Source: Pagrus major
Lineage: Eukaryota; Chordata; Actinopteri; Spariformes; Sparidae
Direction of reading: 5' to 3'
Length of the DNA stretch: 64,000 nucleotides
Assembly: GCF_040436345.1 (NCBI RefSeq)
Contig: NC_133215.1
Coordinates: forward strand, 25,471,806-25,535,805
Part shown: positions 16,518-55,300 of the stretch, one piece after another
Numbering within the stretch: position 1 is the first letter of the stretch
Layout: each line of letters begins with the position of its first letter
Position numbers and translations under genes: made by a program
The notes under the pieces: model-generated
The model's input: only the letters and a program-made list of their open reading frames with translations
Database searches by the model: none
Told to the model about the DNA's origin: nothing

Positions 16518-16757
16518 ATGGTGGACCTGTTCATTGACCGGGTCCTGGTGAAGAACAACAAGGACCAGGATGAGCTGGACACAGAACGTGAGATCGTCAT
16601 GCGCCTGCAGAACCGCATCCTGATGCTCTTCTTTGCGTCTGCTGCGTGTGAGAGCTGCCAGCAGTTTGCTCCCACGCTCACCGACTTCTTCAAACGGTTG
16701 ACAGATGAATCCTACGTGGATCGCTCTGCTCAGCTGGTTCTCCTGTACATTAGGTAC

Positions 16758-16835
<78 letters not shown>

Positions 16836-17525
16836 TTACATCTCTTTCTCAGTCACTGCCTCGTCACCACATAAGAGTAGGAACACACACACACAAACAA
16901 ACATTTGGAGAGATATTCTGGAGTTTATCTGCCCATCCCATATCTCCCAGCAGCACGATCTACCTTTTTCTTTCATCTGTCAGTTTGGACCAGTCGGAGG
17001 AGCAGCAAGAAAGCTTCCTCAAAGAGCTGCCCAAGAGGTGCCTGTTCCTGGCCTATGAGGACCCCTACAGGAGGTGTGTGGCACTCTCCAGTCACTTGTG
17101 TGCACAACCTGCTGGTGGATGATTGCAATGTAAATACACCTAGCTGAGTAAATACATTAGTGTGTGTGTGTGTCCACAGGGAGCTGGAGGCCATGTTTAA
17201 TGTGGAGGAGCTGCCCACGGTGGTGGTGCTGCGGCCCGACTGCTCCATCCTCATAGAGAATGCAGTGGAGGAGATCCTCGACCTGGGTCCGGGCTGCTAC
17301 CGCAACTGGCAGGAAGCAGCCGAGCTCATCGACAGGAGCTTCATGATCAGCGATGACTATGAGCAGAAGTCCATGCGCAGCTTCACCGACCCTGTGAGGA
17401 GACTGAAGTACAAGGTGGAGGATGAGAGGAAGATGAAGAAGAAGAAGAAGAAGCACAGAGGCTGGGGAGGAGGTGGAGATGATGATGCAGAGGTGGAGAA
17501 AGAAGGAGGAGGGGCACCGTTTTGA
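16518..17525 (+). CDS. nxnl1: Nucleoredoxin-like protein 1, tandem copy B
   Basis: A second full nxnl1 gene, 2 kb downstream of copy A on the same strand. Exons are 16518-16753, 16984-17073 and 17180-17525, encoding 223 residues. Exons 1 and 2 have exactly the lengths (236 and 90 nt) and phases of copy A, which shows duplication. The start is ATG in 'catcATGgtggac'. The in-frame sequence upstream opens only with GTG and is not conserved. The thioredoxin site is CESC in FFASAACESCQQF. Conserved blocks are DQDELDTE, PTVVVLRPDCS, WQEAAELIDRSFM and TDPVRRLKYKVEDE. The tail is lysine-rich, then GWGGGGDDD, ending EGGGAPF, close to the glycine/acidic end of human NXNL1. This copy therefore looks the more ancestral in its tail. 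Intron 1 carries a 76-bp (CA)n array starting 4 bases after the exon, so retained-intron product would be a Thr-His repeat. Confidence 0.92.
16757..16832. repeat. (CA)n microsatellite in nxnl1 copy B intron 1
   Basis: About 38 uninterrupted CA units immediately follow the splice donor of exon 1. The array length alters only the retained-intron isoform, not the spliced protein. Confidence 0.95.
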
Positions 17526-30963: not shown

Positions 30964-33900
30964 GTAAGAGCCCAGGCGCCAAGGTGGTGTCATAACGGGT
31001 GTTGATCCTGACACAGCAATCAGCAGTTTGGATCACAAATAAGGGAAGCAAAAGAATGAGCAATGTCATCAAACAAAAGCTTAGCAAAACATGTGGAGGG
31101 TGCAGCTCTCGGCCAAAGGGAGTGTTTCAGGAGAAGCGCCTGTAGCATCTAGTTAATAAACAATCAGTCATTCAGCACCACGGACAGTTACAGTACACCG
31201 GTAGCATACTGATCACACTGACGTGTTTGGTTTTAATGTGGCTTTAATCCGGACACAACAAAAGCACCTTTTCACGTGTTCAGGATGCTCAAGCTGATGT
31301 GAACAACCGGATTAAGGTAATGGTAATGTGATTTTCTCCAATAACCCTGCTTTACACGGATTAATATGGCAGTCAGGAGAGATGTGACAGCCTTCGAAGG
31401 ACAGAAAATAAAATCTTACACTTGTCAGGTTGTGTTTACCAAACGTCACATAGCCAGCAGCATAAGCCTTATCCTCCCCACTGACTTGAGACACAAGATA
31501 CTGCAATGTACCTACGCATCAGATCACATGTAGGTGTCACAGTGGAGGTGCTATGTGATTTATGTCAACAGTCGCACTCTGTTTTCATCTGGGAACCCTT
31601 CCAGCGTCAGCTTTCACACATGTCTGCATTAGAATTAAATTAAAATGAAATTAAATCACACCTGAGGTGTTAACAGTGCAAGAATATGTGATAGCTATAT
31701 GCTAACATTAAATGCTGATATGGGCTTGATTAGATAGAGATAATCACAGCATGGTGTTTGCATCACATTTATTGTGAGTGCAGCATCTTTGTAACATACC
31801 TGCCCATGATTGCGCAGGCTGATTGTATCCTTGTTACATGTATTCAAAGGGGAACACATCGTTTTTACATATAAAGGTTGGTGTAACTGCCCTTGGGAGT
31901 ACTATGATGCCATCAGGTTTCTCTCATTTTAAGGATTTTAGACCACAAATTCATGACATGCACATAGAAGGGACCATTATTATAAAAACAAAAGTCATAC
32001 TGGAATAAAACTAAAGTTATCGTTTTGAAATATTACTTTGAGGAAAAGTCACACCCACCTATTGTACTTTATTTGAATTTACATCTGTTACATCTCAAGG
32101 GTGGCCCCTCGAGATGTAGCATCTCATTTCAAGGGGGTCCTTTCGACACAAATATAAACAGAAATAGTATAACATGACAAACACTGCAAATACACAAACA
32201 CAGACAATTTGCTCACCCTCTCTCACCCACTCCCCAGCCCTTAACCCTTGTAGTACAAGAAACAATGAAATGCAATTTAAAAATGTAAGTACAGAAATAA
32301 AAATAAAATAAATAAATACAATGACCCAGGTAATCTCCAGTGATGTCACTCAGTGGCTAAGATGCATTGTGGGTAATGTAGCTGACCATTTGTTTTTAAA
32401 CTGTCCATAATGAGTCCAACAGAGTTATAGGAGTGCAATGCTTGACTAGTGGACTGCTTTTTTAGACCCTGCTGTCTACATGTAACTTCCTCTGGAGCAA
32501 CAAAAGGCTTTATACTACTTTTGAACCTAAATGAACCTAATTACATTCCATCACTGCAAGAGAAAAAAGTCAGGATATTTCAGCCTCTCTGCTGCTTTTG
32601 ACCACTTTTTAGCCGTGCTAGCAGTGTGGCTTGATGGATGGCATGTTGCCTTTAATCACTTTGCTCCACAGTGAAGTGACTCAGCAACTAACAGATGGAT
32701 TGCCATGAAATTTTTATGCAGGCTTTCATGGTCCCCAGAGGACAAATATTAAAGACCCCCTCCATTGAAAATGTTTAGTTTTTAACCTTGTTAACCTGTC
32801 CATGTTTTTTTTATATTATACAAGACATATCATGAGCAAAATATCCAGTCAACGCCATGGCTGAGCATTTCTGCTTTAGAAATGCAGTCAGACAGCCAGG
32901 GTTTCATATGTCACAAACCTAAGGAACCAATCCCGTGGTCCGTCTCATTAACACGCCGTTGCTGGGAAACAAGCTGTATTCAGAAGAAGTCACTGCTGAT
33001 TATTTTCACGATTAATTGTTAAGTCTATAAAATGTCAAAAAATAGTGACAAATGTTCATCACAATTTCTCACAGCCCAAAGTGACCTCTTTTAACTGCTT
33101 CTTTTGGTTGTCGAATAGTCCAAATCACAAAGACTCTTCATTTACTGTCATTAATGACAAAGAAAAGCAACAAATCCTCACATTTAAGAGGCTGGAAAAC
33201 AGCAAATGTTTTTGCTTGAAAAATGACTTAAACGATTAATTGATTATCAAAATACTTAATAGGTGATTAATTTTCTTTAGATCGACTGATTGTTACAGCT
33301 CTAGGCCTTAGATTCTACCTCTCCTGAGTCCTCCGACATTATGGAAGTGCAGTATTAAATAGTTAGATTACCCCTTTGGCTTATCATACAGGCTGCTACA
33401 AATCACATTATCCACTCTTCCTACGAAGAGATAAAAGCAACTTTGACAGAACATAACGATTTCTGTCAACTGGATTCTCCAGCTCATTGCAGTCTGAAGA
33501 CATATTAAATGCTAATTGTCCTTAAATTGCTCTTTTCTCTCCAACCCTCGACCTCATCTTACTTCCCCCCCATCTCCTCCAACTCCATGAGCAGCTATGT
33601 CCCGGGCCGCCATGCCGTTTGGTCTCCTGCGCAGGGAGCTGGCGTGCGAGGGTTACCCCATAGAGCTACGCTGCCCAGGTAGTGACGTGGTTATGGTGGA
33701 GACCGCCAACTATGGACGCACCGATGACAAGATCTGTGACGCAGACCCCTTCCAAATGGAGAACACACAGTGTTACCTCCCCGATGCACTAAAGATTATG
33801 GCCCAGAGGTGTGTATGCGCTTGGTTTGTATTCTGTGTTTGTACAAGAGCTTAAACTTAAATTATACAGCAAAGATGCGAATTGTAATGTCATTTGTGTA

Positions 33901-35104
33901 CGTGCAAACATCTTGGAAGCAGTGTAACCAATCAATAAGAGCATCTACTGTTTCGTACATACAGCGTGTGTGCACTGCTGCAAAACATACATGTGGATTC
34001 ATGTCAGAGGAAACGTTAGACGAAGCCAATGCTTGTGTTGTAAGTCGTGTGCGCGTGCAGTAATCTCTCCAGCTGGGTCTGAGTGCCTGGCTGCACCATT
34101 AGCTGTGTACTCAGCAGTGTTTTCCTAGAAGAACTGATCAATATTTAGCGAGTGGGAGAGGGAGAGCAGACAAATGGAGTGTCCTTTGCTTCCCCTTTCC
34201 TGTCCGTTAATCACTCTCCTTCCCTCCTTTGTTTTCTCATTCTATCATCCATCCATCCATCCATCCATCCATCCATCCATCCATCCTCTGTCCTCCAGGT
34301 GTAACAACAGGACTCAGTGTGTGGTGGTCGCCGGGGTCGACGTCTTCCCAGACCCCTGTCCTGGAACATACAAGTACCTGGAGATCCAGTACGAGTGTGT
34401 CCCTTACAGTGAGTATGCATTCATATAAATACATAAATAAACACACAACATACAGTACACACACACACAGACATGATTACATGAAATTATGTGCATGTGC
34501 ATGCAAAACCACAGCAATTTAACCTATTTTTGTCGAGCTACATTTTAGGTTGAAGGTGTTTTTTATGTTCTAATAACCTCTGATGTCGACTGTATCCCTG
34601 AGAGATTGATGGATAGAAAGGTGTTTTTTTTCTCAGGGAGTGCGTGCGTGCGTGCGTGCGTGCGTGCATGCGTGCGTGCGTGTGTGTGTGTGTGTGTGTA
34701 TGTGTGAAATACGAAAAGAAAGTTGGATGGAGAAAGTGCAGAGAGGGAAACTGTAGTGCATTTGCATACTGTGTGTCGTCTGTGTGTGCGCGAGTATGCG
34801 AGAGTGCGCGGATGCACTCGCGCGTGCATGCGTGTGTGTTTTCTTTTTCAGATTCACGCCACAGGAGTTGCTCTCTTTTCTCCACAGGAGCCTGATTGAG
34901 GGAAGGAGAGATCAGGGGGGAAGAGGTGGAGGGAGGGATAAGGGGGAGGATGGGGCGGGGAGGGGAGGGCAGGGGGGAGGAGAAGAGAGGAGAGGAGAGG
35001 AGGGGAGGGGAGTATGCTGGGACTCCTTTCGTGCTTCTTCTTTCTTTTATGTGAACTATAATGTTTGTGGTGAGAATGAGATCCAAAGTCTTTATCTGTG
35101 CAAT

Positions 35105-35152
<48 letters not shown>

Positions 35153-35758
35153 TCCTTCTTGCCTTCTTTCCTTCTTTCTTTCTTTCTTTTTCTCTTGCTT
35201 GCTTTCTTGCTTCTCTTTACTTCCCTTCTTTCACCCTCTGACTTCTCTTTCTTTCTCTCCCTCTTTTTTTTCCTATGCTTGAGTAGAAGTGGACCAAAAA
35301 GGTAAAGACAATACATTGTAGCATCTTGATCTCTCCTTACCCCGACCCCCCTCTTTTTCTCTCCTTCTCTTCCTCTCTCCTACCATTTCTCTCTTCCTCC
35401 TACCCTAGGACGTTGTTTCGTAGTCATGCTGGATGTTGCCCCCCTTTATTCATTTCCTCCTCGGTTATTATTTTCTTTTCCCCCCATATTATCCATCTCT
35501 TGTTGTATGGAAACCCGTCCTTTTATCCAGTTTTATGCAGGTTCTGCACATCTCTTTCTCTTTCTTCCTTTCTGTCTCTCTCTCTCTGCAGTTTCCTCCC
35601 TTCTTCTTCTCCTCTTGCACCTGGTCGATCTCTCTGTCTCTTATTTCTCTCCCTCGGTCTCTCTGTGCACACACAAACATAAACACAACTGCTCACGCAA
35701 ACATAAACATAATCTTCTATGCTCTCTCTGCTCTATTTCCTTTACACACACAAGCACC

Positions 35759-35829
<71 letters not shown>

Positions 35830-38800
35830 TCCTTCAAATCCTTCCTTCAAATCCTTCCTTCTTGTCCGATCATCCTCATCATGCTTATTTTCCCTTTTCT
35901 TCCCTTATAGGAAGAGCCCCTTATTTATCTTCATAGGAAAAATAAGACCAAATGTGTGTGATTATTTATCCGTCTGGATGTGTGCTTACCAAGCACTGCT
36001 TATGTGTGTGAGTGTGTGTGCATGCCTTCTTGCATGCCAGTGTGAGACTGTACAGTATACATATGTGTCCATACAGTTATTGACATGTGGGGTGGACCAA
36101 TCGTTGTGCCCGGCGTAAACTAACCTGCCCTCTCATTCACTTCAAGGCAAAATTTAGCCCCGCCTTCTGCGTCCCTGATTCTACCTCACACTCTTTTTCA
36201 CTCTTTTTGCACTAACCCACAAACACACACACACACATATGCACACATGCATACACACACAAAGCACATAAATCCTCTCACACACCTTTCATTGCAGTGT
36301 CCCTGTTGTATTACTCACCACACACACACGAACAGTGTGTGATTTCAACACTTAAACGTCTCTTCTGTTGCTTGTCTCTCGGGTTCAGCACAGGTGTTTT
36401 AAACCCCTCTCTCTTTTTCTCTTCATTCCTTTTTCTTCTTGCTGCATCAAATGCATCTAATTCAATCCATTTTTCATGCATCGATCCATTTTCTCTCTGC
36501 ACCTGCCTCCACTATATTTCCACTCTTTTCTCCCCCTGCTCTTCTTCTTCTTGCTCCTTCTCTCTTCTTTTCTCTCTCACATCCTGCTGTCTACCCCTCC
36601 TAACTCCCATCTTCCAGTTTTCGTGTGTCCCGGCTCGCTGCTCAGCATCCAGCCGGCCTCCTCTCTCCTGGAGGCGGAGCATCAGTCGGGGGCGTGGTGT
36701 AAGGACCCCCTGCAGGCTGGTGACAGGCTGTACGTCATGCCGTGGACGCCATATAGGACAGAGGTGCTGTACGAGTACGCCTCGTGGGACGACTACCGAC
36801 AGAACAGAGTCACCACCACATATAAGTGAGTAATGTCCACGGTGTGTAGATGTGTTAATTAATTTATGAGGCTCTTTTGAATTTTTGACTTTCTGAAACA
36901 GAAATTTGAAGATGTGACCTCGGGCTGTGGAATCTTGAAATAAAATAAAAAATAGTTGTTAGTTGCAGGCTTTGGGGGCTGATTTCATATTCGGTAACGT
37001 TAAAGTGCAATGTGTAAAAATTTTGGTTGAAAACATTCAAAACGTCACTGGAATTATCAATAGAATGTGTGAGGTAATAACAGCTTTAACATTACGACAA
37101 CTACGTATTATGTTGAAAAGCATGTTTAGCATGCTAACCAGCTAGCCCTGGCTTTAAACAGTGTGCACATGCAGGAGGAATTCACAGGAAACTACACATG
37201 TAAATGAGTAGCTGTCAATTTAAGGTCATTTCTAATGAAACTGTTGGACTCATGCTATTAAAACATTAAAGGTGTTGCCACATCAACCAGGACAGAAATC
37301 TAAAGGATTTCAACTTTAAACGTCTGAAAAAACATCCGTAGATAATATTTATGAGTATTACTAAACCAGTGGGCTGACGTGAGCAAACAAAAAAAGCACA
37401 AATTCAAAAATCTTTCATGTCACTTAACCAAAACTGTTGTCACTTGAGAAAATCGTTTTTTTTTTTACCTTTAATTTGCTTTTAATAATATGTATTACAT
37501 TCTAATATAAATAGCATAAATTTGCATGTGCAGTTCATATTTTTTTTCTCATTCTGTGTCATAGGTTGCCGAGCCGCGTGGACGGTACTGGTTTTGTGGT
37601 GTACGACGGCGCCGTGTTTTACAACAAGGAGCGAACGCGTAACCTGGTCAAGTACGACCTGCGGACACGCATCAAGAGCGGCGAAGCAGTGGTGGTCAAT
37701 GCCAACTACCACGACACCTCTCCGTACCGCTGGGGAGGGAAGTCAGACATTGATCTGGCGGTGGACGAGAACGGCCTTTGGGTGATCTACTCTACTGAAG
37801 CCAATAATGGACGCATCGTAGTCAGCCAGGTGCAGTGGAAGCAATGAAAGCAGATAATGATTAAAAAGACACAAGAAGGAATGTTTTAATTAGAGTCCTC
37901 TCATCTTCTCACGTCTTTTCTGTCTTCCAGGTGAATCCGTACACCCTGCGCTTCGAGGGTACGTGGGCCACCGGCTTTGACAAGCGCGGGGCGAGCAACG
38001 CCTTCATGGCCTGTGGCGTGCTCTACGCTGTGCGCTCCGTCTTCCAGGATGATGAGGGGCAGGCGGAGGGCCGAGTTGGCAGCGACATGGTGGTTTATGC
38101 CTACGACACCAGCCGTGGACAGGAGCTGCCCGTTCAAATACCATTCCCCAACCCTTACCAGTACATCTCCTCCATAGACTACAACCCCAGAGACAACCAG
38201 CTGTACGTGTGGAATAACTACTACGTGCTGAGATACCCGCTACAGTTTACGCCGCCACCGCCCACTAAAGGTATGTGGAACAAGTGCACTTCTGTATTTG
38301 GACATATGTGATGTAACAAGGGAATCAGCAGTGTTTCCTTCCCTCCAGGTCCCCTCTCCTCTCTGATGACGACCGTACGCTCCTACACGGCCACCGTCGC
38401 GCTGACCCCAGTGCGACCATCGGCCTCTCACCCAATAGGCGTCATCAACCGAGGGCCCTTTGATCAGCGGCCGATCACAGCCATGGTCCCTCTGACCCCA
38501 CGTCCACCTCTGCGTGTCCCCTTGGCTCCAGGGAGCCCCGGTCAGGTGGGCGGATGTGAGGGCCGGGTGGCACGAGGGGTGCAGTGGCCACCCACGCTGA
38601 AGGGAGAGACAGTGGAGAGGCCCTGCCCTAAAGGGTCACTGGGTAGGTGGTGCCCATGTGTGTGTGTGCAGCATGCCAGTTTCTGTGTTGTGTTGTGTGT
38701 GTGTGTGGTATTTGCATGTGTGTGTCTATATCTTGTTTCCCTTTGAAATGTAGTCGAATGTCCTCTCTTTGAACTCGCCTTCAGATGAGAGAGAAGAAGA

Positions 38801-40057
38801 AAGTAGTGTTGGGAGAAGCTGGGTTCGTCCACTCTTCCTCTCGCTGTGCAGCTGTCTTCAGCCCAGCGCTCCCTCGGAGGAAAAGCTGTTATGCTGATTA
38901 TGTAGATAAGCCTGTGGAGCATTTTGCCTCGTCCTAATCATGTTGAATGGCTTGGACATGGTTTCAGCACAGAGATGATAATTACACTGGGAATAATCTT
39001 ATGTTAAATCTGGTTTAGAACTGAAGACGGGTGTCCTATGTTTACACTTACACTGGCAGAACTGGTGTATAACAGACACTCTAGTATTATATGTATTATT
39101 ATATATATATAAACACAATAAGTTTCTTTTTCTTTTTTTTTTCTTTCTTGCACTATATAAGAATTGGCCATCTGTTGACTTCACACGGCCAACAAATAAG
39201 GGCAGCATATCACCAGTGACTATTGTGTTCATACATCCATGACTGAAGCTACTGTTAGCTTGGTTAGCCATACATTCTTTACAATTTATAAAATTCTTAC
39301 ATGAAACAATTAAACGGATCAGATAAAGCACAACACTTAACTAGCTTTGAATTATCACCTGACTGTTGCTGTGCGGTGCTTTTTAGCCTCGTGTAGCTTA
39401 TAATTTTTTTTTTTAGGGAAATGCAAGGTTCAGTCTCAGCGCTCTAAGCATCATCATTTCCAGCAGCAGCTCTGCCCCGCCCTCGGCCAAACAGACATGC
39501 TGCTCTTTTTGATAGACTGAGAGCAGAGATCAAACAGCGATGTAATTTTGTGAAGTCACTTCACACTGTTATTGGCAGGGGGCAACTCACCCACTGCCCG
39601 AAGGCTGACACCCAGAAACATCCTGAACGCAGCAAAATACTGAGATCAGTTAAAACAATCCTGCATAGTATACCCTTCATGAAGTGACAGTTCATCTAAA
39701 AGACACATTTAATTGTTGGTTTTTGTTATTAACTGGTAAAAAAAATGTAGTAGCTATATTTGGTCGTCCTGTAAGGGTAAAAGACACATGGAAAAACATG
39801 TGCAGGGAGAAAATACAAAGTGACAGACGACTTCAGGACCTTTTAACACAAACTGTTCTTTCTCTCTCTGTCTGTCTGCACCACCCTGTCTGTCTCTGCA
39901 GGTATAGCCTCCTATCAGTGCATGCAGTCTCCAGTGGGTTGGAGCTCCAGAGGGCCTGACCTTTCCAACTGCACCTCTCCCTGGGTCAGCCAAATTGCAC
40001 AGAAGGTTAGTCACACATTCACACAAACACATTTACACACATTTACACACACACGCA

Positions 40058-40089
<32 letters not shown>

Positions 40090-40528
40090 CACACACACAC
40101 TGTGCAAATGCCCCAAAGCCAGTCAGCAAGCAGTTCTCTCTTAAATGTCAAAATATTTGACATTACAAACACCCCCGCCTCACTCCAGATCAAGAGCGGA
40201 GAGAACGCAGCCAACATCGCCGGGGAGCTGGTCAACCTGACGCGTGGGCGGATCTATGCCGGTGATGTCAGCATGTCCGTCAGGCTAATTGAACAGCTAT
40301 TGGACATCCTGGACTCCCAGCTCCAGGCATTGAGACCAGCCAATAAAGAGTCAGCGGCACGCAATTACAACAAGGTAAATTGTGCCTGTTGTCAGAGCAG
40401 ATGTGTGCTTGACCTTTCTTGGAAATGAAAGCAGAAATGTCAGTGATGATGGCTTTAACAATAGATGTTTTTTTTTTCCTTTTCAGCTGCAAAAGAGGGA
40501 GCGCACATGCAGAGCTTATGTTCAGGTA

Positions 40529-40565
<37 letters not shown>

Positions 40566-43500
40566 GGTAAATTGATCATTTTCAGGAGCAAGAATAAAAC
40601 ACTTTTTCCTGCCTTTCTCTCCGTCAGGCGGTCGTTCAGACAGTTGATAATCTGTTGGGTCCTGAGGCTCTTGTGTCCTGGGCAGATATGAGCGGTGCTG
40701 ACCAGTCCCGCTCAGCATCACTACTGTTAGACGCAGTAGAAAAAGGGGCATTTCTATTGGCTAACAATCTCTATGAAGGTCGTTTCAGTGACAGGGCACC
40801 AAATGTCGGTACGTGGACGTTCTCTTTCTTATCAGTTATGCTCTAAACATTGTGTAAATTATCAGTTCAGTTAAGATTTTGTGTTCTTGTGTGTGCACAG
40901 ATCTGGAGGTATATGTACTCAACACAGAGGCAGACATACAGGACCTGAGGTTCCCTCACTCCTACGACAGTGACAGCATCTTGCAGATATCAGCACTGGC
41001 TCTGCAGCAGTACAGCAACAATGGTCTGTGGCACACACCAAACAAATCAACATTTTGTACTTCACATATTAAAAATCTGAATTATAAAATATAAGATGTC
41101 TCATCTTGAGTGTGATAAATGAAAGTAGAGTAAAAACAGTAGAAATAAATCTATGTTGTGTCTCTCTCTTTCCTCTGCAGGCCAGGTGAAGCTGGTCCTC
41201 ACTCTCTATAAGAACCTGGGCTCCTTCCTGACCACCCAGAACTCCACTCTGCGGCTCGGTCTGGGGCTGGGCCAGGGGTCCGATGCCAGGCGTAGGAGCC
41301 TGGTGGTCAACTCCCATGTCATCTCTGCGTCTGTGCACAGAGGATCCAACAGAGTGTACCTTTCCGAGCCGGTGATCTTCACTCTAAGGCACCTGCAGGT
41401 CTGAGTTTACCTCAAAATGAATGTTTAGACTGTGCAGAATCCGGTTCCTGAGTATCTTTTATAGGCACTAATATGTGTTTGCCTCCGCAGCTGGAGAACC
41501 ACTTTGGCCCCAACTGCTCTTTCTGGAACGCATCAGGGGTTTCTGGGAGCGGCAGGTGGTCCACACAGGGCTGCCGCCTGTTACACACCAACAACACACA
41601 CACTACCTGCGCCTGCAACCACCTGTCCAGCTATGCTGTGCTCATGACGTATCAGCAACCGGCTGTGAGTAACACACACCACAAAAACAGCACGTGACAG
41701 TGTTTAGTTCACATTCGCAGCCGATAGAAAGCAGATTTAGGGCTTAAGTGTGATTTTTTTGCTTGATATGTGTGAAACTTGTCTCGACCAGAACAGAAAG
41801 ACAATAGACCATATTCACACGGCAGCCATTTTCCAACTGTAAAGCAACTGTAAAGAAGATAGTTAGTTTCATCCAGATGGACACCGGACCATATTTCTAG
41901 GTAAAACAACAGGTTTGATAACCAATTAGCTTCCAGTAAGCAACAGCTAACGTTAGCATTCAACCACATCCTGGCTAACGACACTGGTTTGAAGCAATAC
42001 GATTAGGAAAGGCAAAAATTAACTCAGAAATATCAACACACATCTTGGAGACATTTGTCTAAACCTGGAAGTGAAACACACAGGATGTAAACAAACGGTA
42101 ATGTTAGTTAGGAAGTTGTTGAATGCTAACATCAGCTAACGGGCTATCGAATATGTTGTTTTACCATGAATTATGGCCGAATGTGCCTCCAAATTTTCAC
42201 TGTCCATCATCTTTCCGGTTGCTGATCAGTTGGGAAGCTGTAAAATGACAACAGTTTGTCATATAACCCTGGAACACAGCAGCATCACATTATCCAGCAT
42301 TCAAGCTTCCCACCCTGAGCGTGACGATGGAGGAAAATGTTGTGAAGCAAAATTTAGCTTTATCTGAACCACCTTTGATTTGTCAGTGTGTTTAATTTGT
42401 ACAAATATTGAGCCAATAGCCACGGCATGTGCTACACATTATTACTGCCAACGTTTTTTTTTTTGAGATGATCAGGTGCCAAACGTGAATCTCATAAATC
42501 CAGCTCCATCTTCGACCACCAATTGCGCCCCGGCTCCACCCTTGTGCACTCATTTGCTGTAGCACGGTTGGACTCCACCACCATGGAGCTCTCCAAAATG
42601 TTGTTTAAAAATCAAGCTCAGAGGGGGTGATAATTGTGGGTTGTAGCTGCATGAGGGAGAGAGAGTGATGAATGCTGCAGGGTATTTTGTCCTGCCATGA
42701 AACTGAATTCAGTATTTCTCTGCAAGATGTTCTCTTTGTTAGGTGTGATTTTATTCATCTGAATGGATGTTATGTAACACGCAGGGTTACGCAACCAGAG
42801 GCAAAGACACACGATGATCCACATATGCTCTACATTCATACACTCTTTATGATCTGATGTAAAAAGAAAAATGGTCTCTGCTCTCTCCTGCTCCTCCTCA
42901 TCAGTTCGGGGTCGGTGTCGAGGAGCTTCTCGTCTATGTGGTTTCCTGGGTTGGCATCTCTGTAGCACTGGTGTGTCTGGCCACCTGCCTTACCACCCTG
43001 TGCTGCCAGGGGGCGCCCTGGCACACGGACCACAGCACCATCCACTGCAACCTGTGGGCCAACCTGCTCATCACTGAACTGCTCTTCCTGGTCGGTGCCA
43101 ACAAGACTCAATACACAGTGAGTGCTTTGACTGAACACATACAGAATAGAAGAGTACGATATTCTGGATCTTTCTTGTATGTTAAAGGATTTTGTGAAAT
43201 AATCCTCCTGCTCTGTCCAAATTTCCAGGTTGTGTGCTCCATCATTGCTGGCCTGCTGCACTTCTCACTGCTCTCAGTGTTTTGCTGGTTGTGTCTGGAG
43301 GGGGTGGAGCTGTACCTGCTGCAGCGGGAGGTGTTTGAGGGACGTAACTCCAGGAGGAAGTATTTCTACCTGTGTGGCTACTCTATTCCTGGGCTGGTGG
43401 TGGCCGTGTCCGCAGCCATAGACTTCAGAGGCTACGGCTCAAAAACTGCGTAAGTTCTCTGTTCTGTTCACTTTTTGTTTCGGCTCAGAATGACTTTGTT

Positions 43501-46500
43501 ATTTTAGGGGTTCTTAAATGTATTGTCAATTGCTTGTGTGTTTCTATGTGTGTGTGTGTGTAGATGCTGGCTGCGAACAGATAATTACTTCATCTCAAGT
43601 TTCCTTGGACCCGTTGCTGTCATCATTACGGTGAGATAGAATGCTCTCATGAAGATACATCATTTCAGATGTTTACATTTATTTTTATGTAAGTCATCAG
43701 AGTGTAAAAACATCATGTTGAGTCATTATGAGGATTTAACGGTCTTGCTGTTTGTTCTTTTTTGGGCCTCAGTTGAACCTGGTTATCTTGGTGATGACCT
43801 TACATAAGATGCACAGCACTGCTGCTTTGAAGCCCGACTCCAGTCGCCATGACAGCCTGAGGTATGTACAGTGTGTCATGCTGATGTGTTGTGGTTTTAT
43901 AATGTGTAGAGCTCTATTTTTGGTAGCTTTTGCATAAGAAAAAGAAAAAAAAGTTGAATTTCTGAACTGAAAAAGGGCCTGCGTTGGTAAAAACTTGTTG
44001 CATGCTCATTTGTAATATCAGATAGTATTTTAATAGCTCTCTGGGCTTTTGTTCATTGCTGTGCCCCAAAACCTGATTAAACCAAAAAAAATGAAAGAAA
44101 ACTTCAAAAATGAGTTTGAAAATGAATGTCTCCTGAGCTGGAGGCAGTCTGTTATGTATGAAAAACCTAATCTCTATTTAGAGATATTAGTTCATTAAAA
44201 TATTTAAGACTTATCCTAGCTGAGACAGGGAGCCGGTGTAAAATAGATCAAACAGATGTAATTTGTTCTTTCTTTTGTCTTAGTAAAGCTCCAGCAGTTT
44301 GTTAATGAGCAGCATTTTGAATAGTTTCAATTCTGGCATTCAGAGCTTTTAGAAGAGCAGAATAAAACACGCTGTAGCAGGCTTAATAGTCTGATACTTT
44401 GAGTGAGTAAAGGTCAAAATTGAGCAATGCTAAAATAGAGGGGCAAAAGTGCACTCAACAAAGGACAAAGAGAGCTTGGGTGTGTGTTAGTAAAGTCAGG
44501 GAATTTTGTCAGAATGCTCCTTTAGTTGTAGTTTTTCAGTGTCTTTTTAACCTCAGGGGAGCTTGACAACAGTGGCACTGATAGATGTGTGCAAGTCCTT
44601 TACTTGAAATGTGTTGCACGCACCCCAGCTCTTTTTTTTTTTTTTATCCTTGTTTTCAGCTCATCAGTGCTTTTTAAAGGGGCACTATGTAGTTTTGGAG
44701 AAGAAATTCAAACTCTGAATTTTCATATTTACAATATTAATGAGGTAATAATACAAACTCAGACTTATTTATTTTTTCCATAACTGAATAAACAAGCTGT
44801 TCTCAGAGGAAAATAAGGTCCCAGAACACTGTTTGAAGCTAGAAAGGTGGCAGGGCCCGCCACATATAAACAAAGTATAACAGTATGAAAAGTGTTGTCC
44901 TTTAAGGTCAGTTTGTGTATTCAGTTTATTCATGAAAACAAAGAGAGTTTGTTTATTTAGTTTCTTCAGTCAATGAAGAATTTCTCTTCTGAATCAAAGT
45001 TCTACCCCCAAACTACATAGTGCCCCTTTAAAGCAAGAAATCTAATGAGAAAAGCATTCTGACAGATTAAAGGTGAGTGAACTGTCGTTAAAATTGCTCA
45101 TCAGAATGAAAGTACAGCGTGTTTTATCTCGTGTCCTGTTGTCTTCAGGGCGTGGGCGGTGGGCTCCCTGACGTTGCTCTTCCTGCAGAGCGTCACCTGG
45201 TCCTCGGGCCTGATGTTCCTCTCTGCTCCGTCTCTCCTCCTGGCTTACCTCTTCTCCTCCCTCAACACGGCCCAGGCCCTCCTCATCACCATACTGCACT
45301 GCACCCTTGCCAGGAAGGTGTGTCTCTGTGTTCATATGTCATTATGCAGGAATCCTTGTGTTACGTCATCATTTGTGACTAAACAGATATGTTTAAACGT
45401 TGCCTGCAGGGTCAGAAGGACTATGGCAGATGCCTGCGTCTCTCGCAGTGCTGTGTCACTTCTTCTTCCAGCTCTCCAGACTCAGTGAAGGGCGCTGCCC
45501 TGCGCTCCAACAGCCGCTACACCAGCAGCCAGAGTCGGCGAGCTACAGCTAACAGACAGGTGCATTATAATACACTGTACCTCTGTGTTTCTTTCTCTCT
45601 GTGTGTCTGAATCAGTTCTGACCTTATGTGGGATAATCCTTTTCCAGAGTCGTATCAGGAGGATGTGGAATGACACTGTTCGCAGACAGACTGAATCGTC
45701 TTTCATAGCTGCAGACGTGAACAACACCCCGACTCTTAACAGAGGTAAAGATTACTGCCTTTTTCTTTCTTTTTAAATCTCAGCGTTGCCTCCTCTACTG
45801 TTCAAGGTTGCTACATTTATTTTTCTTCCTCTCTCGCTCTCCATCCTCAGCGGCTTTGGGGAACCATTTCCTTACTAATCCAGTTTTGCAGACTCATGCT
45901 GGAGCCTCTCCTTATGACACAATGCTGGCCCAGGGATACAATCAACCCTTCACCTCCACAGGTATGTTTCACTATAACTTTCCCTTGATGCATCTGTGTT
46001 TCTACACAGCTAACTGACTCTCTCACTTTATGTTTGTTTCTTTGACTGTCCTTTGTTTATGTGTGCTCACAGTACTTTGCAAAACCCTTATGCCACATTG
46101 AAAAATGTCTTTGTTAAGTAACTTACATACGTAGTAACTATTTAGAAGGAAAAAAAAGTTGGTGACTTAAAGGTCAAATATTGTAGAAAGCAAAATTTCC
46201 CTTTAGGTGCTACATAAATACTGTGACACTGTCAAAACGCCCAAATCCACGGAGACATGCACACAGCCTATATTCACAAACTGCACCTTCAAATGAGTTG
46301 CCAAGACGTCTGTAAGGTTGTGATGTCACAACTATACTTTCAACAGCCCGCAGCACAGCTGTGATTGCAAAAACACAGACAGACCTGATGCAGAAACACG
46401 ATAGGTGGTGCTTGCTCAGGCCAGTGAGAGCTGACCAATCAGAGCAGACTGGCACTAAATCCTTCAAACAGGGGGTGAATGGAGGTAGTGCAGGAATGGA

Positions 46501-49418
46501 CAGTATGAGAAAATAATGTATTTTTTGAACATTAAAGCATGTAAGCATTTTCTAATACACACAGTGAAGCTGGTAATGGGCATAATACGGGGCAGCACAT
46601 CATCAAAGAAACCACCAACTGCCAGCATCTTTCCACATCTGCGGGGCCCGGTCACCTTTGGTCATGAGTCCAGATTTTGGAACCATTAGTAAGGTCCTGC
46701 CAGAAGATTTCAAGCAGCCATCAGCCTCATAAGGAGTTAGCAACTCACAGATTCAGACAGGAGCCAGGCCATTCAAGGTTTCAAAATATATACCTGTATA
46801 TCTGTGATGAGATCATCTTGGCCAGTAGTATCAGGTGGTTGTTTTCGTTCAGGCTCTACTGCCTGAATTTCTTCTTTGTGGCCTAAGACTTCTGCTCAGT
46901 ACAGTTTGTTATTTTTTTGTCTCTGATCAGTATGCATATTTATAATTTAGAGGTCCTAAAATGTTTTTGCTTTATACCAGTGTGGTGTTCTGTTTTTAAG
47001 TTTTTGACCTTGAATCGTTGTCTTTTAAATGTTTTTTGACACTCTCCCTCTCTGTCTCTCTGTCTTAACGTGGACCAGTAGGAACCTTCAGAAACAAGCA
47101 GAGTATGAGCTCTTTTATTGTGCTCTCTCAAATCATTGAGCGCCACTTCCTCGTACACTGTCCTTCAATTCATAGACTATCTGTGCAATATTTGCACACA
47201 GTAATTATTCATAGACCATGAAGACATAGCATACATAACATCTCCTTCATGTGGCAACATTACCATACTTTTCATCAAAGAAATTTGTTAATATCTAAAT
47301 ATTTTTGGTAAAGCCACGCCCTCAGTAGGCACATGTACCCTGAACTCTCTCATTCATACATTCACTCATGTAAATCTCTTTGTGTAAAAATTTCATCCAT
47401 GTTTGATAATTGGTATCTTCCTGTTTCTTCCAACAGAGGGTGTTGTGTCCCAGAGCCAGGAGTCCTGTGGACTGGACAGTGTGTGTCTCAATGGAGGCTA
47501 CACCCCTAACACCTTCACCCTGCACGGTCTTGGAACCACACCCGGCTCCCGAGCTGGAGTGGTGGGCAGCACCGACCTTCTGAGGGAGGGAGGAGTTGGG
47601 ATGGGAGGGGATGACATCTCCCCAGCCCTCCTCACCCCCCACGGGGCCACGGATCTGAGCGGTGGTGCTGGTATGCGTCGTAACCTGTCTGATGCGGCAG
47701 CGCTGGAGAAGATGATCATCTCTGAGCTGGTGCAGAGCAACCTGAGGCCCTCGGTCCCCATGCCAGTTCCTCCTGAACGCTACGGAAGCCTGGCGAGGCC
47801 TCACCACCACGACAGGGCAGCTCTCACTCACACTGCCACTTTAACCCGACATGCACAGCCGCCCCAAGAGGGCTGGGCTGCCACCATGCAGCCGAACACA
47901 CGCCCAAACGCACAAGAGGGCTGGCCGCATACGAGACATCACACACAAGACGCTGAGACACATTCCACGACACGTGGACAGGATCAGGCTACTACGCCGC
48001 GATTACAAGATGGCTGGTCACACACACGTGTTTCTGGAGAATCTGAGTCCCGTGAGCTCCTTAAAGACGGGGACAGGGTGATGCAAGGCACTCTGGGTCG
48101 CCGTGGGCTCCAAGACAGGCAGCAAGCGCGTCCCCCTGATGTTCAGGCTAGGCCCTACTCCACCCTCAGCCGCACCCCTGGAACTCTGTCCCGCCATCGT
48201 AACACAGTGGAGTCGAGTGGAGGGACGGACAGAGACAGAGAGAGAGACAGGGAGAGAGAAAGGGACCGGTACCGAGACAGGCCCCTCCCACCTCCTCCTC
48301 CGCCTCCCCCACAGGAGTCAGAGCCCCTGTACAAGGCCCTGGAGGAGCCGCTGCTGATGAAACAGAGGGAGGCAGGCGTAGAGACATGGAGGGGCGGCCA
48401 GGACAGAGAGAAGGACGAGACGTTTCTCTTGAAAAGAGACGGGGTGATAGACGAATGGAGGGGAGGAACCGAGAGAGTGAGGGACGAGTCTTTTACCTCT
48501 CAGAAGAGAGATGGAGAGATGGACGAATGGAGGGGTGGAGTAGAGAGAGGGAGGGAGGAAACTCATCTGCTGGAGAAGAGAGGAGGACGGATGGAGGTGT
48601 GGCGGGGAGGATCAGACACAGAGCAGGAAGAGACTTTTATAACGCAGAAGAAAGATTTTGCGATTGAAGGATGGCGAGGCGGGGTGGAGAGAGAGAAGGA
48701 CGAATCCTTGTTTTTAAAGGACAGAGATGGATGGAGGGCAGGGATCGAACGAGAGAATGACAAACACAAGGACAGAGTGCTGGATGTGTGGAGAGGAGGG
48801 TTGGATGTAGACAGAGAGGAGCCTTTCCTCTTTGAGAGCAAAGATGGAGGTCTCGACGCGAGGAAAAGAGGATCTCTTCGTTACCATGGCGAACGAGAGG
48901 ATTCTGACAGCTTTGCTCTGCCTTTGACCCCTGACCTTGACCTCGACCCTGACTCCTCACCTATCTACGCCCGAGATTCAAACCCCTCCCCGCTCTACCC
49001 CGGAGACCGCCGCTCGCCGCCACTCAGCATCTTCCCCCGAAGCTCTCCCCCGACGAATATATTCGCTCCTCGAGACACCAACTCGCCTCCGAACAATCTC
49101 TACTCCCGCCACTCCCCCCAGGTGTACAGCCGAAGCAGCTCCCCTCCTCGCTTCTACACCCGCACCTCCCCTCCGACCCTCTCGTACCCCGACAGCAGCC
49201 CTGAAGGTCCAGAAGAGGTCAGCCCCACTGGCCAGCCCCAACGACCCGCTCTGGAACTTCCCTACAGCCTGGGGCGACCCCCGCTGGGTCCTCGGCCCAA
49301 TCACCTGCAGACCTTCTACCAGCCGCCGCCGCTGGCATCCAATGGAGAAGCAGTGTACACAGCAGAGCCCGCCTCTGAGGGAGAGGACGGACAGATGCAG
49401 CGGGTGACGAGCCTGTGA
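30894..49418 (+). CDS. adgrl1: Adhesion G protein-coupled receptor L1 (latrophilin-1)
   Basis: A synaptic adhesion GPCR that binds teneurins and FLRTs. Coding exons: 30894-30963, 33595-33808, 34299-34408, (35287-35301), 36618-36825, 37565-37829, 37931-38270, 38349-38642, 39902-40005, 40189-40374, 40487-40525, 40628-40808, 40901-41023, 41181-41398, 41491-41664, 42905-43117, 43229-43449, 43564-43630, 43773-43861, 45149-45317, 45410-45559, 45648-45744, 45851-45961, (47079-47102), 47437-49418. Phases agree throughout; without the two microexons this gives 1874 residues (human about 1474). Order: signal peptide ([19 protein letters not shown]), Rhamnose-binding lectin ([16 protein letters not shown]), olfactomedin ([20 protein letters not shown]), hormone-receptor domain, GAIN with GPS ([14 protein letters not shown]), 7TM (WVGISVALV to LHCTLARK), and a tail with [28 protein letters not shown] and the PDZ ligand VTSL. 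The extra length is in the last exon, which holds tandem repeats. TM6 is diverged (TWSSGLM for TWAFGLL). The ATG has a good context (cagcATGg). Confidence 0.96.
30964..33594 (+). other. adgrl1 intron 2, repeats only
   Basis: 2.6 kb with no coding exon recognised. A family F repeat lies at 32985-33305. AT-rich sequence near 32260-32330 includes short AATA runs. Confidence 0.6.
32985..33305. repeat. Dispersed repeat, family F copy
   Basis: The best preserved copy in the window. It runs from 'cacgattaattgttaagtct' to 'gactgattgttacagctcta' with the 'cacatttaagaggctggaaa' core. Related copies are at 8262, 22060 and 27790. Confidence 0.5.
34246..34286. repeat. (CCAT)n microsatellite next to adgrl1 exon acceptor
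   Basis: About ten CATC units end 12 bases before the acceptor AG at 34297-34298, so the array supplies the upstream part of the polypyrimidine region. Confidence 0.9.
35105..35153. repeat. (CTTT)n microsatellite upstream of the microexon
   Basis: About twelve CTTT units continue into interrupted CTTT/CTTG sequence up to the microexon acceptor at 35285. The strand is pyrimidine-only in the sense direction of adgrl1. Confidence 0.9.
35287..35301 (+). other. adgrl1: adgrl1 15-nt alternative microexon (splice site A, KVDQK)
   Basis: AG|AAGTGGACCAAAAAG|GTAAAG: with the A left by the previous exon and TT of the next, it reads K-V-D-Q-K-V. Skipping it gives Y-I-F-V-C-P-G. This matches the mammalian latrophilin KVEQK insert between the lectin and olfactomedin domains, which is known to tune teneurin binding. 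Length 15 keeps phase 1 on both sides. It sits where the family predicts, with one conservative change (E to D). Confidence 0.9.
35758..35830. repeat. (CTTT)n microsatellite downstream of the microexon
   Basis: About eighteen TTTC units, 0.46 kb 3' of the microexon and in the same pyrimidine orientation as the upstream array. Confidence 0.92.
36826..37564 (+). other. adgrl1 intron inside the olfactomedin domain
   Basis: 0.74 kb of AT-rich sequence. 'tgctaaccagctagc' near 37132 is a common dispersed-repeat phrase in fish. No exon was recognised. Confidence 0.6.
38643..39901 (+). other. adgrl1 intron before end of hormone-receptor domain
   Basis: 1.26 kb, with a GT tract at about 38660-38720 after the donor and a pyrimidine tract (tctctctctgtctgtctg) before the acceptor. 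No exon was recognised. Confidence 0.6.
40530..40565. repeat. (GACA)n microsatellite merged with a splice donor
   Basis: The donor of the 39-nt exon 40487-40525 reads CAG|GTAAGACAGACAG and runs straight into nine GACA units. The array contains no GT, so it does not offer competing donors. Confidence 0.9.
41665..42904 (+). other. adgrl1 intron between GPS and first transmembrane exon
   Basis: 1.24 kb. A fish repeat-like block at about 41800-42160 has 'aacgttagcattcaacc' / 'ggttttgaatgctaac'-like inverted phrases. No coding exon is seen, though mammalian latrophilins have a few more residues at this junction. Confidence 0.5.
43862..45148 (+). other. adgrl1 intron between TM5 and TM6 exons
   Basis: 1.29 kb. 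It holds MITE A copy 2 at 44673-45032, ending 116 bases before the TM6-7 exon. 44220-44460 resembles other dispersed fish sequence ('agacagggagccggtgtaaa'). Confidence 0.6.
44673..45032. mobile_element. MITE family A copy 2
   Basis: The left end is TTTAAAGGGGCACTATGTAG and the right end CTACATAGTGCCCCTTTAAA. These are near-perfect inverted repeats continuing about 40 bp inwards (AATTCAAACTC against its complement). 360 bp long, no coding frame. Confidence 0.85.
45962..47436 (+). other. adgrl1 intron in cytoplasmic tail with candidate microexon
   Basis: 1.47 kb. 46167-46760 looks like a dispersed fish element (it starts 'ttaaaggtcaaatattgta'). A pyrimidine tract at 47039-47066 precedes the 24-nt candidate exon at 47079. 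Confidence 0.5.
47079..47102 (+). other. adgrl1: Candidate 24-nt in-phase microexon in adgrl1 tail
   Basis: The acceptor 'ctctgtcttaacgtggaccag' and donor GTATGA bound 24 nt. With the phase-1 G left by exon 45851-45961 it reads V-G-T-F-R-N-K-Q and leaves A to join AG of the last exon (Lys). It keeps phase and has no stop. A matching insert in other latrophilins is not something I can recall with certainty, so this rests on splice signals and phase. Confidence 0.5.
48387..48860 (+). repeat. adgrl1: Coding minisatellite in adgrl1 last exon (WRGG repeats)
   Basis: Seven tandem units begin with Trp codons at 48387, 48456, 48528, 48600, 48672, 48732 and 48789. Spacings are 69, 72, 72, 72, 60 and 57 bp, all multiples of three. 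The consensus unit is W-R-G-G-x-x-R-x-x-D-E-x-F, then L/K-rich, then K-R-D-G-x-x-D-E. WRGG is kept in six units and WRAG in one. The block lies between the conserved YKALEEPLL and PDSSPEGP motifs of the family and is absent from human ADGRL1 as I know it. Confidence 0.92.
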
Positions 49419-52309: not shown

Positions 52310-55300
52310 TTAGCAGACAGTATGGTGGGGTGACAAGGGGCTCTCCAGGGTCTCGGTCGGAGACAGATCTGACCTCGAGCTTTTAAACATGGACGAGATG
52401 TGGAAGGCCTGGGAAACACGCACACACACATGTCCAGTCGTGAGATTTTAACAACAGTGACATGTGGACGCACAAAAAACAAGCAGGCAATGTATGTAAT
52501 GTACTCACCACCCAGTAAGCAGTGAGGGCTCCTTGTATGTAACCCGTCAGCACGTCGGACGGGTGGTGCCTGTAGTCTGAGATGCGGGTCAGGCCTGTGT
52601 AGACTGCCAGCAGAACCAGGAAGAACTGCAGCGCCGGCCTCAGCAGCCGAGCCCCACGCCATGTCAACCTCGCCTGCAGGTAAAACTACATGACAGAAAT
52701 GAGCATGATGTTACTTGGTGCAAAGAACAATATGAACATCATCTGCTATTGTAAATAATGACCAAGATGATTGCAGTTAACTTTATTCAATGAAGGGAAA
52801 CAATCCTTCAGACTGGTAGAATTTAACATAGACTCCCTCAAACAATAGCTGAAATCTTAAGTTCGATTTCACAACTATATTACTTACTTTATTTGCCTAA
52901 ACTCCATAAAGAAACAGGTATTTACTTGAAAGCCTTTAAAGGATGAGTTCACCCAAAAATGAAAATTTAGTCATTATCTACTCACCTCCATGCGAATGGA
53001 AAGTCTGGGGAAGTCCACAAAACTTTCCTGAAACTGCAGCATTCTCCTAAACTACTGAAGAAGATGGGGAATTGTTTTAAAATGTTAAAAAAATAACCAA
53101 ATAAAACCATAAAATGTCTCCATACAGCTTAATACAAGTCTGTTAAAGCCCTGAGTTCCAAAACTGATTTGAAAAGACGTTATGTACACCCTTGATGTGC
53201 CGTCGAGCTAGTGCACCCACTTCAGGCAGGTTACACGCTATCACCCTTAGCTTAGCAACTACAGCGAAGATTTCAACTTTGAAAGGGTGTAAATAATGTC
53301 TTTTCAAATAATTTTACTATCCCTGGGCTCCTGGAGACTTGGATTACGTTGGACGAGCTGTATAGAGCTATTTTGTGTTTTGTTTTTGGTTGTTTTTTTT
53401 ACATTTTAAAACAAGTATTCATCTACGTCAGCTGCTCTGAGAATGCTGCAAAGCTGTTTTGCTGTGAAGCCCCAGAAATGTTTGGTAGATGACAAAACTT
53501 CATCCAGTGTTCCATCCACAAGGGGTGTGAGTAGATGATGAATGAATTTTCATTTTTCGGTGAACTGTTAACCCTTAACCCTAATTTCTTAAAACAGATC
53601 TTTATTGACTGTTTTTTTTTTTTTTTAATGCCTAAACAAAGACAACAAAATCTCTGACTGAATAAACTGAATAAACAAACTGACCTTAAAGGACAACACA
53701 GTTTCATACTGTTTTACTTTGTTTATATGTGGCGGACCCTGCCACCTTTCTAGCTTCAAACAGTGTTCTGGGACTTTATTTTCCTCTGACAACAGTTTGT
53801 TTATTCAGTTATAGAAAAAATAAATATTTGTGTTTGTATTATTACCTAATTAGTATTGTAAATATTAAAATTCTAAAAAAACTACATAGTGCCCCTTTAA
53901 TCGTCACATGGTGAATCTTGAGTCTCTTTTAAGCAAAAATACTGTCCATCATTTATTCACTGCAGTAGGTTTGGTAATTATTTAAACACAGGCTTTTATC
54001 TGGAAATTAAAACGTGAATATAGACACAGAATATCCTTCAGATTCATCATACGCAGTGCATCAGATATGTTAAGGTACTCAGTGCACTTTATGGACTTTC
54101 CAAGATCTCATGATGTGGCGAAAACAAAGATAAACACACAAACGCTAAATATAATGCAGCAGTATTGTAATAAAAAGTTGGAGAAAGTGGTCATGAACAG
54201 GCACACAGACAAGATGGCACTCGCATTAATATGCTGCTTGTACATATGCAGGCCCTGGCATGGACGCACACAAGCTGCCATAAACACATATAAATGCAGA
54301 GAGCTTGCACACACACACTCACACACACACAATGGAGGAGAGCAGTGAGGCGGTGAGGCGAGGTCACACTCCTCCCACAGCAGAACAAAGCTGTCTCTGT
54401 TTGTCCCATTTCTCCTTTCAGCCCTTCTCTTTCTCCCTCTCCTCTTTCATTCTCTCGCTTTCTGCTGCTAACTGGACTCATGATGGCTCCCCATTTCATT
54501 CATTCATTCGCTTGCTGCATTTTGTAGAGATGTGGTAATTGGAAATTGGAGAGACAGTAAATTCTGTTCTGCCAATGTTTGAGTGTGTGTGTGTGTGTGA
54601 GAGGAAAAATGGGTGAACGAGAACGCGATGGATAGATAGATAGAAATACTCACTGCTAAATACAGCATTGTGTACATCGCGAAGGAAGCGTGGCCAGAGT
54701 AGAAGGACTTCCTAAAAAAATTGAGAAGTATTTAGATTAACAGAACAAAAGCCTGATACATAACACGCAATGCATAAACACACACACGCACCTGGCCTCC
54801 TCCTCCAACCTGTGGTCAGGCTGGCGGCAGTTCACTGTTGCAACGTAGGTTCCAGGTGTGCAGTTAAGCGACGCGTAGGTGACACCGCACACATTCAGGA
54901 AGTGCGGTCGCAGCCGCCCGACACTCAGCTTGGCCATGTTGGTCAGTGATTGGCCGACACAGCAGCCGAACAGGAAGCAGCCCAGCTCCTTGTACAGACA
55001 GGACACGTACAGGTTCCTGACAAAGGCCTTGGAGCTGACGCCTCTGAAACGTACCCGGTAACACTCCCCGAGGGCGATCTGGAGGTAGTCAGACACGTCA
55101 CGTGACTCCACATGGTATGAATTGAACAATGGATTGAATTCTAAGACAGGGATGATAAGGTCGTTGAGTACTCACAGTGAGGCCGGTGATAATGATGCCA
55201 CCAGCGATGAGCAGTTCGTCTGATATGGCCTCCTGGTGCAGATAAGGATAGGTGATGCTGGGGTCCCCGCACATGAAGCCCCTTCTGTAAGGACTCACTG

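Follow-up and report, generated by a model that had tools for sequence, protein, structure and literature searches.

The window analysed here, 64,000 nucleotides of Pagrus major (assembly GCF_040436345.1, contig NC_133215.1, positions 25,471,806 to 25,535,805; C1 below), carries on its forward strand a latrophilin gene whose last coding exon contains a tandem array of seven units opening with WR[GA]G (Table 1). SUEL lectin, olfactomedin, GAIN, GPS and seven-transmembrane (7TM) exons are followed by two tail exons, that is, the domain order of the latrophilins (ADGRL) on one strand, with Pfam matches over 33591-46014 and again on the last exon. Eight of the ten open frames submitted matched the SUEL, olfactomedin, GAIN, GPS or 7TM families, and in this search of the upstream frames, the frame 45110-45379 gave no Pfam match; the exons of the upstream part (33591-43450) are only partly delimited. 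The Latrophilin family PF02354 was matched by 45721-46014 (expect value, E, 3e-9) and by the last exon (E 6.2e-18), the latter in two stretches, profile positions 114-180 and 294-372 of 372; the open frame 47388-49418 spans this exon. The GPS reads HLS, in agreement with H-X-S/T, the cleavable motif of adhesion G protein-coupled receptors (GPCRs) according to the abstract of PMC13062082. The product ends in ...MQRVTSL followed by a stop, a C-terminal motif of the VTSL type found in Shank-type PDZ ligands, as judged from the sequence motif. With its HLS site, open frames and conserved C-terminus, the receptor copy appears intact.

The seven units share a single frame. The initial annotation, made from the letters of the window, had described them with spacings of 69, 72, 72, 72, 60 and 57 bp and with WRGG or WRAG openings; its coordinates, frame and spacings were matched exactly when we rechecked them, WRGG being present in six units and WRAG in one (48732). 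Over 48387-48860, the coding frame is free of stops and the remaining five frames contain 8, 3, 2, 2, and 2. The exon product has ten tryptophans, seven of them in WR[GA]G and three in an upstream Q[ED]GW motif. A chance origin of the array was ruled out by codon shuffles, Markov DNA and self-alignment: the WR[GA]G count never rose above 1 in 20000 codon shuffles of the exon, the best frame of first-order Markov DNA with the composition of the array held at most two (5000 trials), and the self-alignment of 48318-48860 scored 312 against 42 ± 8 in shuffles, with 0/60 reaching 312. DNA self-identity over the same segment exceeded 0.42 only at lags 72 (0.50) and 144 (0.45) among lags 50-159, and a scan of the window in six frames found one further WR[GA]G, at 45478 on the minus strand. 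Owing to the divergence of the units, Tandem Repeats Finder counted no more than 2.1 copies (48431-48582). A coding minisatellite consists of tandem units, each 10-100 bp long, that share an open frame, and the seven in-frame units with their lags of 72 and 144 agree with this definition. The fraction of charged residues in the array is 0.47 and its Uversky value is -0.257; frame, periodicity and composition together uphold the earlier description of an in-frame 72-bp coding repeat of disordered-type composition in the tail of latrophilin-1.

The units were aligned by protein and their codons compared pairwise over 24 columns. Their mean pairwise nucleotide difference is 0.37, and the units are old. 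Over all 24 columns, the proportions of differing silent (pS) and replacement (pN) sites were 0.66 and 0.30, with a pN/pS of 0.453. As a neutral null we used simulations from the consensus that excluded stops and were matched in base composition and divergence; the observed ratio was reached in 0/500 of them (null 0.80 ± 0.14), with the reservations that the silent sites are saturated, that the null assumes a star tree and that the seven units are short and have a common history. WR[GA]G is kept in 7/7 units, against a simulated mean of 1.0 and a maximum of 5, and when stops were permitted, 495/500 simulations contained one. The constraint is distributed unevenly along the unit: pS and pN were 0.82 and 0.03 in the WRGG columns (a contrast inflated by the choice of the units by WRGG), 0.80 and 0.24 in the [DE]E[ST]F columns, and roughly equal, 0.48 and 0.41, in the spacer columns 5-9. 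Columns 6 and 10 hold D or E in 7/7 units and column 23 in 6/6, despite a varying third base, and columns 5, 14-16, 21, and 24 vary freely.

By codon position, divergence was 0.29, 0.29, and 0.54; this third-position excess was reached in 12 of 20000 permutations, and in 93 of 20000 without WRGG. The same test on the neighbouring repeat at 48954-49211 (six of its eight units) gave no third-position excess, the observed value being reached in 16906 of 20000 permutations, so that the bias is not general to the exon. The simulations and the third-position excess back the claim, already made from the letters, of selection on the protein sequence, and we consider it very likely that the units have been kept by such selection. 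Since the protein pattern has been maintained through the mutations that separate the units, the array is probably used for something.

We then looked at the other latrophilins of the genome (785.9 Mb, 25 contigs). With the array as a query, the single match at E <= 0.001 among 17 scored candidates was the array itself. A search with the 7TM exon gave 25 places, five of which were fetched (C21, C23 at 24.0 Mb, C10, C11 at 18.1 Mb, and C1 at 18.9 Mb), the weaker ones being taken as other receptors. Five tails ending in [VI]TSL were found in C23, C21, C11, C1 at 18.9 Mb, and C10, and WR[GA]G is present in none of the five, in a sampling that is possibly incomplete and could have missed a further tail. 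A repeat common to all latrophilin tails is therefore ruled out. A single WRGG occurs in a 172-residue open frame of the C11 region (reverse strand, 7243-7758), ahead of 7TM-like sequence and outside the tail.

Among these sisters, the tail of the C23 copy (an open frame of 321 codons including the stop, with a product of 305 residues) aligns with that of the window across both conserved ends, YKALEEPLL and QTFYQ are common to both, and the residues that flank the array are adjacent in C23, reading EEPLLLQRAQ-SVLYQSDPEESES at the insertion point. We built an unrooted tree of the six copies on 254 GAIN, GPS and 7TM residues aligned in all of them, the columns being taken from tblastn pieces and not from curated gene models. 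The window and C23 copies stand together on one side, with a support of 91 (IQ-TREE) or 0.939 (FastTree), and it is by this grouping among the six copies compared that the window copy is of ADGRL1 type; by name, the pairs are presumably ADGRL1, 2 and 3. As judged by its sequence, C23 is a second ADGRL1 copy with an ordinary tail, and the expansion lies in one of two copies. The comparisons made here were with PF02354 and with the sister copies of the same genome; human ADGRL1 is not known to carry such repeats between YKALEEPLL and PDSSPEGP.

The window copy differs from its sisters beyond the array. Over the 254 residues its identity to C23 is 61%, against 67-75% between C23 and each of the other four, and the branch of the window copy measures 0.505 against 0.085 for C23 (IQ-TREE, LG+G) or 0.467 against 0.083 (FastTree), i.e., it is about six-fold longer. 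By these alignments, the whole receptor copy (33591-49418), and not the tail alone, is fast-evolving. It resembles ADGRL1 and PF02354 in its lectin, olfactomedin, GAIN, GPS and 7TM domains and in both conserved tail ends, but between the conserved tail blocks it has about 468 residues against about 112 positions in the profile. The product of the last exon is 659 residues long, compared with 305 in C23, which agrees with a tail about 350 residues longer; the array provides about 166 of the roughly 354 additional residues, less than half. The remainder is found in the upstream segment 47760-48317 and in the downstream proline/serine/tyrosine-rich repeat 48954-49211.

The upstream segment, charged and rich in threonine and proline, scored 62 in self-alignment against 38 ± 8, with 0/60 shuffles reaching it (largest 60), and the stretch 48861-49211 scored 115 against 42 ± 7, again with 0/60. 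The [YF]x(R/D)xSPP repeat occupies the place where the C23 tail reads RDSLYTSITNLRDSPYPDSSPE. Behind the third Q[ED]GW site, at 48045, a match to the position-specific scoring matrix (PSSM) of the unit scored 11.0 (in the column-permuted control, the best score was reached in 5/500 and the second best in 0/500), and hmmsearch with the unit gave no match at that site at E <= 10; on the basis of this one PSSM match, the region 47874-48125 with its Q[ED]GW sites is possibly a decayed part of the WRGG array. The initial annotation is accordingly amended in several respects. The array does lie in an ADGRL1 tail, but it is confined to one of two copies, and the presence of the same repeats in all ADGRL1 tails, which would have spoken against a lineage expansion, was looked at within this genome, where 0/5 sister tails have them. 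The change had been placed in the tail, which is indeed expanded, but the receptor core evolves fast as well; and the repeats had been held to lengthen the protein, which they do for only part of the difference.

Table 1. Features of the window that belong to the latrophilin gene and its tail.
Feature	Position	Strand	Remarks
SUEL lectin exons	33591-34425	+	Pfam match
Olfactomedin exons	37515-38308	+	Pfam match
GAIN exons	40598-41401	+	Pfam match
GPS	41452-41694	+	Pfam match
7TM	42863-43450	+	Pfam match
Penultimate tail exon	45851-45961	+	Donor CACAG/GTATGT at 45961/45962, phase 1; start estimated by eye
Last coding exon, ADGRL1	47437-49418	+	Acceptor CAACAG/AG, phase 1; C-terminal ...GQMQRVTSL, then stop
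Expanded charged, threonine- and proline-rich segment	47760-48317	+	Three Q[ED]GW (W at 47874, 47922, 48015)
Conserved EEPLL segment, like back half of repeat unit (possible seed)	48342-48386	+	
Unit 1	48387-48455	+	23 codons
Unit 2	48456-48527	+	24 codons
Unit 3	48528-48599	+	24 codons
Unit 4	48600-48671	+	24 codons
Unit 5, four residues short	48672-48731	+	20 codons
Unit 6, without E[ST]FLL part	48732-48788	+	19 codons
Unit 7	48789-48860	+	24 codons
Second degenerate repeat, about eight units of about 10 residues, [YF]x(R/D)xSPP	48954-49211	+	Adjoins array
Conserved latrophilin C-terminus, ending VTSL (PDZ-ligand-like)	49212-49415	+	PF02354 profile 294-372 on 49131-49415; alignment to C23 tail ending LVTSL

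Fragments of neighbouring genes were also seen in the window, one of glycosyltransferase family 25 at 4790-5119 (+) and one of the PAP2 superfamily at 52386-52685 (-). Two tandem thioredoxin-like genes (13394-14460 and 16464-17522), each with a Pfam Thioredoxin_8 match, are identical at 51/80 and 66/121 aligned positions in two exons; we take them to be similar to nxnl1 (rod-derived cone viability factor).

At the left edge of the array lies the conserved EEPLL segment, and the unit is similar to it in its back half, E-E-[TSP]-F-L-L-x-K-R-D-G. The EEPLL segment scored 10.7 with the PSSM of the unit, a value reached in 4/1000 shuffles. When the columns of the profile were permuted, the highest score in the non-array part of the exon was reached in 5/500 and the second highest in 0/500. 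In the C23 tail, which lacks the array, the EEPLL site is the top site for the back half of the unit (6/300 shuffles reach it). A 15-column profile found no such match on the ADGRL2/3-type tails of C21, C11, and C1 at 18.9 Mb (97, 177, and 67 of 300 shuffles, respectively), the three such tails that were scanned. These likenesses suggest that the array probably grew from the conserved EEPLL segment.

Known repeats and motifs offer partial parallels. Like the array, the 48-bp variable number tandem repeat in exon 3 of DRD4, in the third intracellular loop, is translated in frame as tandem units and lies on the intracellular side of a neuronal GPCR, although its 16-residue units are proline-rich and polymorphic in people, whereas those of the array have 24 residues, are rich in tryptophan and charge, and are strongly diverged. 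Linear binding motifs, SH3 ligands, are reported for the DRD4 repeat (PMC3698457). DRD4 is a precedent for repeated intracellular GPCR motifs with binding partners. Cephalopod rhodopsin carries C-terminal PPQGY repeats, likewise a tandem repeat in a GPCR tail, but the units are short and made of proline and tyrosine, and sequence and receptor class are unrelated to those of the window. In an RGG box, several RGG triplets fall within a few residues; the triplet of the array is preceded by an aromatic residue, but the triplets are 19-24 residues apart and not clustered, and this candidate was rejected. An array of acidic dileucine sorting signals, [DE]xxxL[LI], was likewise discarded, as by eye only 2/7 units have one (DETFLL in unit 1, EETHLL in unit 3). 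Hydrophobic-moment sums on the consensus unit were weak and uninformative. A structure search with the whole exon returned only two huntingtin fusion chains (E 0.045 and 0.079), of low complexity, and pattern scans gave 28 matches in genome contigs and 6 in viral contigs, with 0 confirmed in either.

Based on these results, we propose that a real coding minisatellite in the ADGRL1 tail provides a multivalent docking array, a reading to which, as a whole, we give a probability of about 0.6. Its evolutionary part is very probable. A 72-bp segment, probably including the EEPLL-coding stretch, would have been copied in tandem until there were seven units, complete or almost so. These have since diverged far in their DNA, while protein selection would have preserved a pattern made up of W-R-G-G, a hydrophobic block like E-[ST]-F-L-L, K-R-D-G, and fixed sites for acidic and for basic residues. 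The mechanism is put forward tentatively: each unit would act as a linear docking motif, short and exposed, within the disordered stretch of tail that runs from the membrane to the C-terminal PDZ ligand of Shank type. The array lies about 185 residues ahead of this ligand. As a multivalent binding string, the tail may alter the clustering, the sorting or trafficking, or the postsynaptic-scaffold coupling of this copy.

Several observations weigh against this explanation. The array matched no Pfam family at E <= 10 and no solved structure, and homology therefore points to no partner. A donor-like AGA/GTGAGG at 48477, inside unit 2, and an acceptor-like site at 49121 lie at the two ends of a 645-base stretch, a length divisible by three, and these sites, if used, could excise most of the array in frame. 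The choice of units by WRGG counts here as well, and when the WRGG columns were removed, the selection signal weakened to a pN/pS of 0.58 against a null of 0.80, which 13/300 simulations reached. The origin from EEPLL is held to be moderately supported because the full-unit hidden Markov model did not recover this segment at E <= 10 and because, with a profile shortened to columns 10-19, an unrelated site in C1 at 18.9 Mb was equally good (8.9, 5/300). Finally, constraint may be partly relaxed in the fast-evolving window copy.

The last point leads to the view of the array as a neutral relic, a repeat born by slippage in a relaxed, degenerating duplicate, its frame kept only for the needed C-terminus downstream. 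The long branch of the window copy over the 254 aligned residues and the purine-rich simple sequence that surrounds the array fit this view, but it is at odds with the pN/pS that no stop-rejecting neutral simulation reached, with the rarity of the third-position excess among permutations, and with the intact frames, HLS site and C-terminus; already disfavoured, we regard it as quite improbable. The coding strand of the array is 72% purine, and a constraint on the DNA or RNA, such as a purine-rich exonic splicing enhancer or structured DNA, might be imagined to yield the protein pattern as a by-product. However, divergence concentrated at third positions (0.54 vs. 0.29) is what protein selection is expected to leave, and the adjacent repeat in the same exon is devoid of this bias, which makes such a constraint extremely improbable.

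A spacer is less improbable than these two. Here, selection would act on composition, length and the absence of stops in an entropic or charged segment, for the reach of the PDZ ligand or as weak condensate stickers, and not on specific docking motifs. The charged fraction and the Uversky value of the array suit a spacer, as do units 5 and 6, which are short or lack the hydrophobic block, the freedom of columns 5, 14-16, 21, and 24 to vary, and the two further expanded segments that flank the array. Nevertheless, an invariant tryptophan is unneeded in a pure spacer, and WRGG has been kept in 7/7 units at saturated silent divergence; we consider the spacer unlikely.

Returning to the docking array, the setting in which it might act is suggested by other latrophilins: LPHN3 needs its long tail and the PDZ ligand to join Shank condensates (PMC10830413), and for zebrafish lphn1a as well as lphn1b, enrichment in the adult brain and eye is reported (PMC4335454). 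The titles and abstract openings covered by our literature search describe no repeat of this kind in any latrophilin of a fish. In a bolder version, which we hold to be somewhat unlikely, one ADGRL1 copy would have been remodelled wholly after the fish-specific duplication, with a receptor core evolving six-fold faster, and would have acquired, by tandem copying of its own EEPLL segment, a docking module of seven 24-residue WRGG units with its own partner and a distinct synaptic role. If this were true, the array would represent a scaffold-binding string of a new type, and the role of this copy at the synapse would differ from that of the ordinary one. The ordinary and the array-bearing ADGRL1 in one genome offer a natural comparison of the effects of tail valence or length on an adhesion receptor, and the pair also illustrates how a linear segment that is conserved may become a repeat array after duplication, while the array-free copy persists in the same animal.

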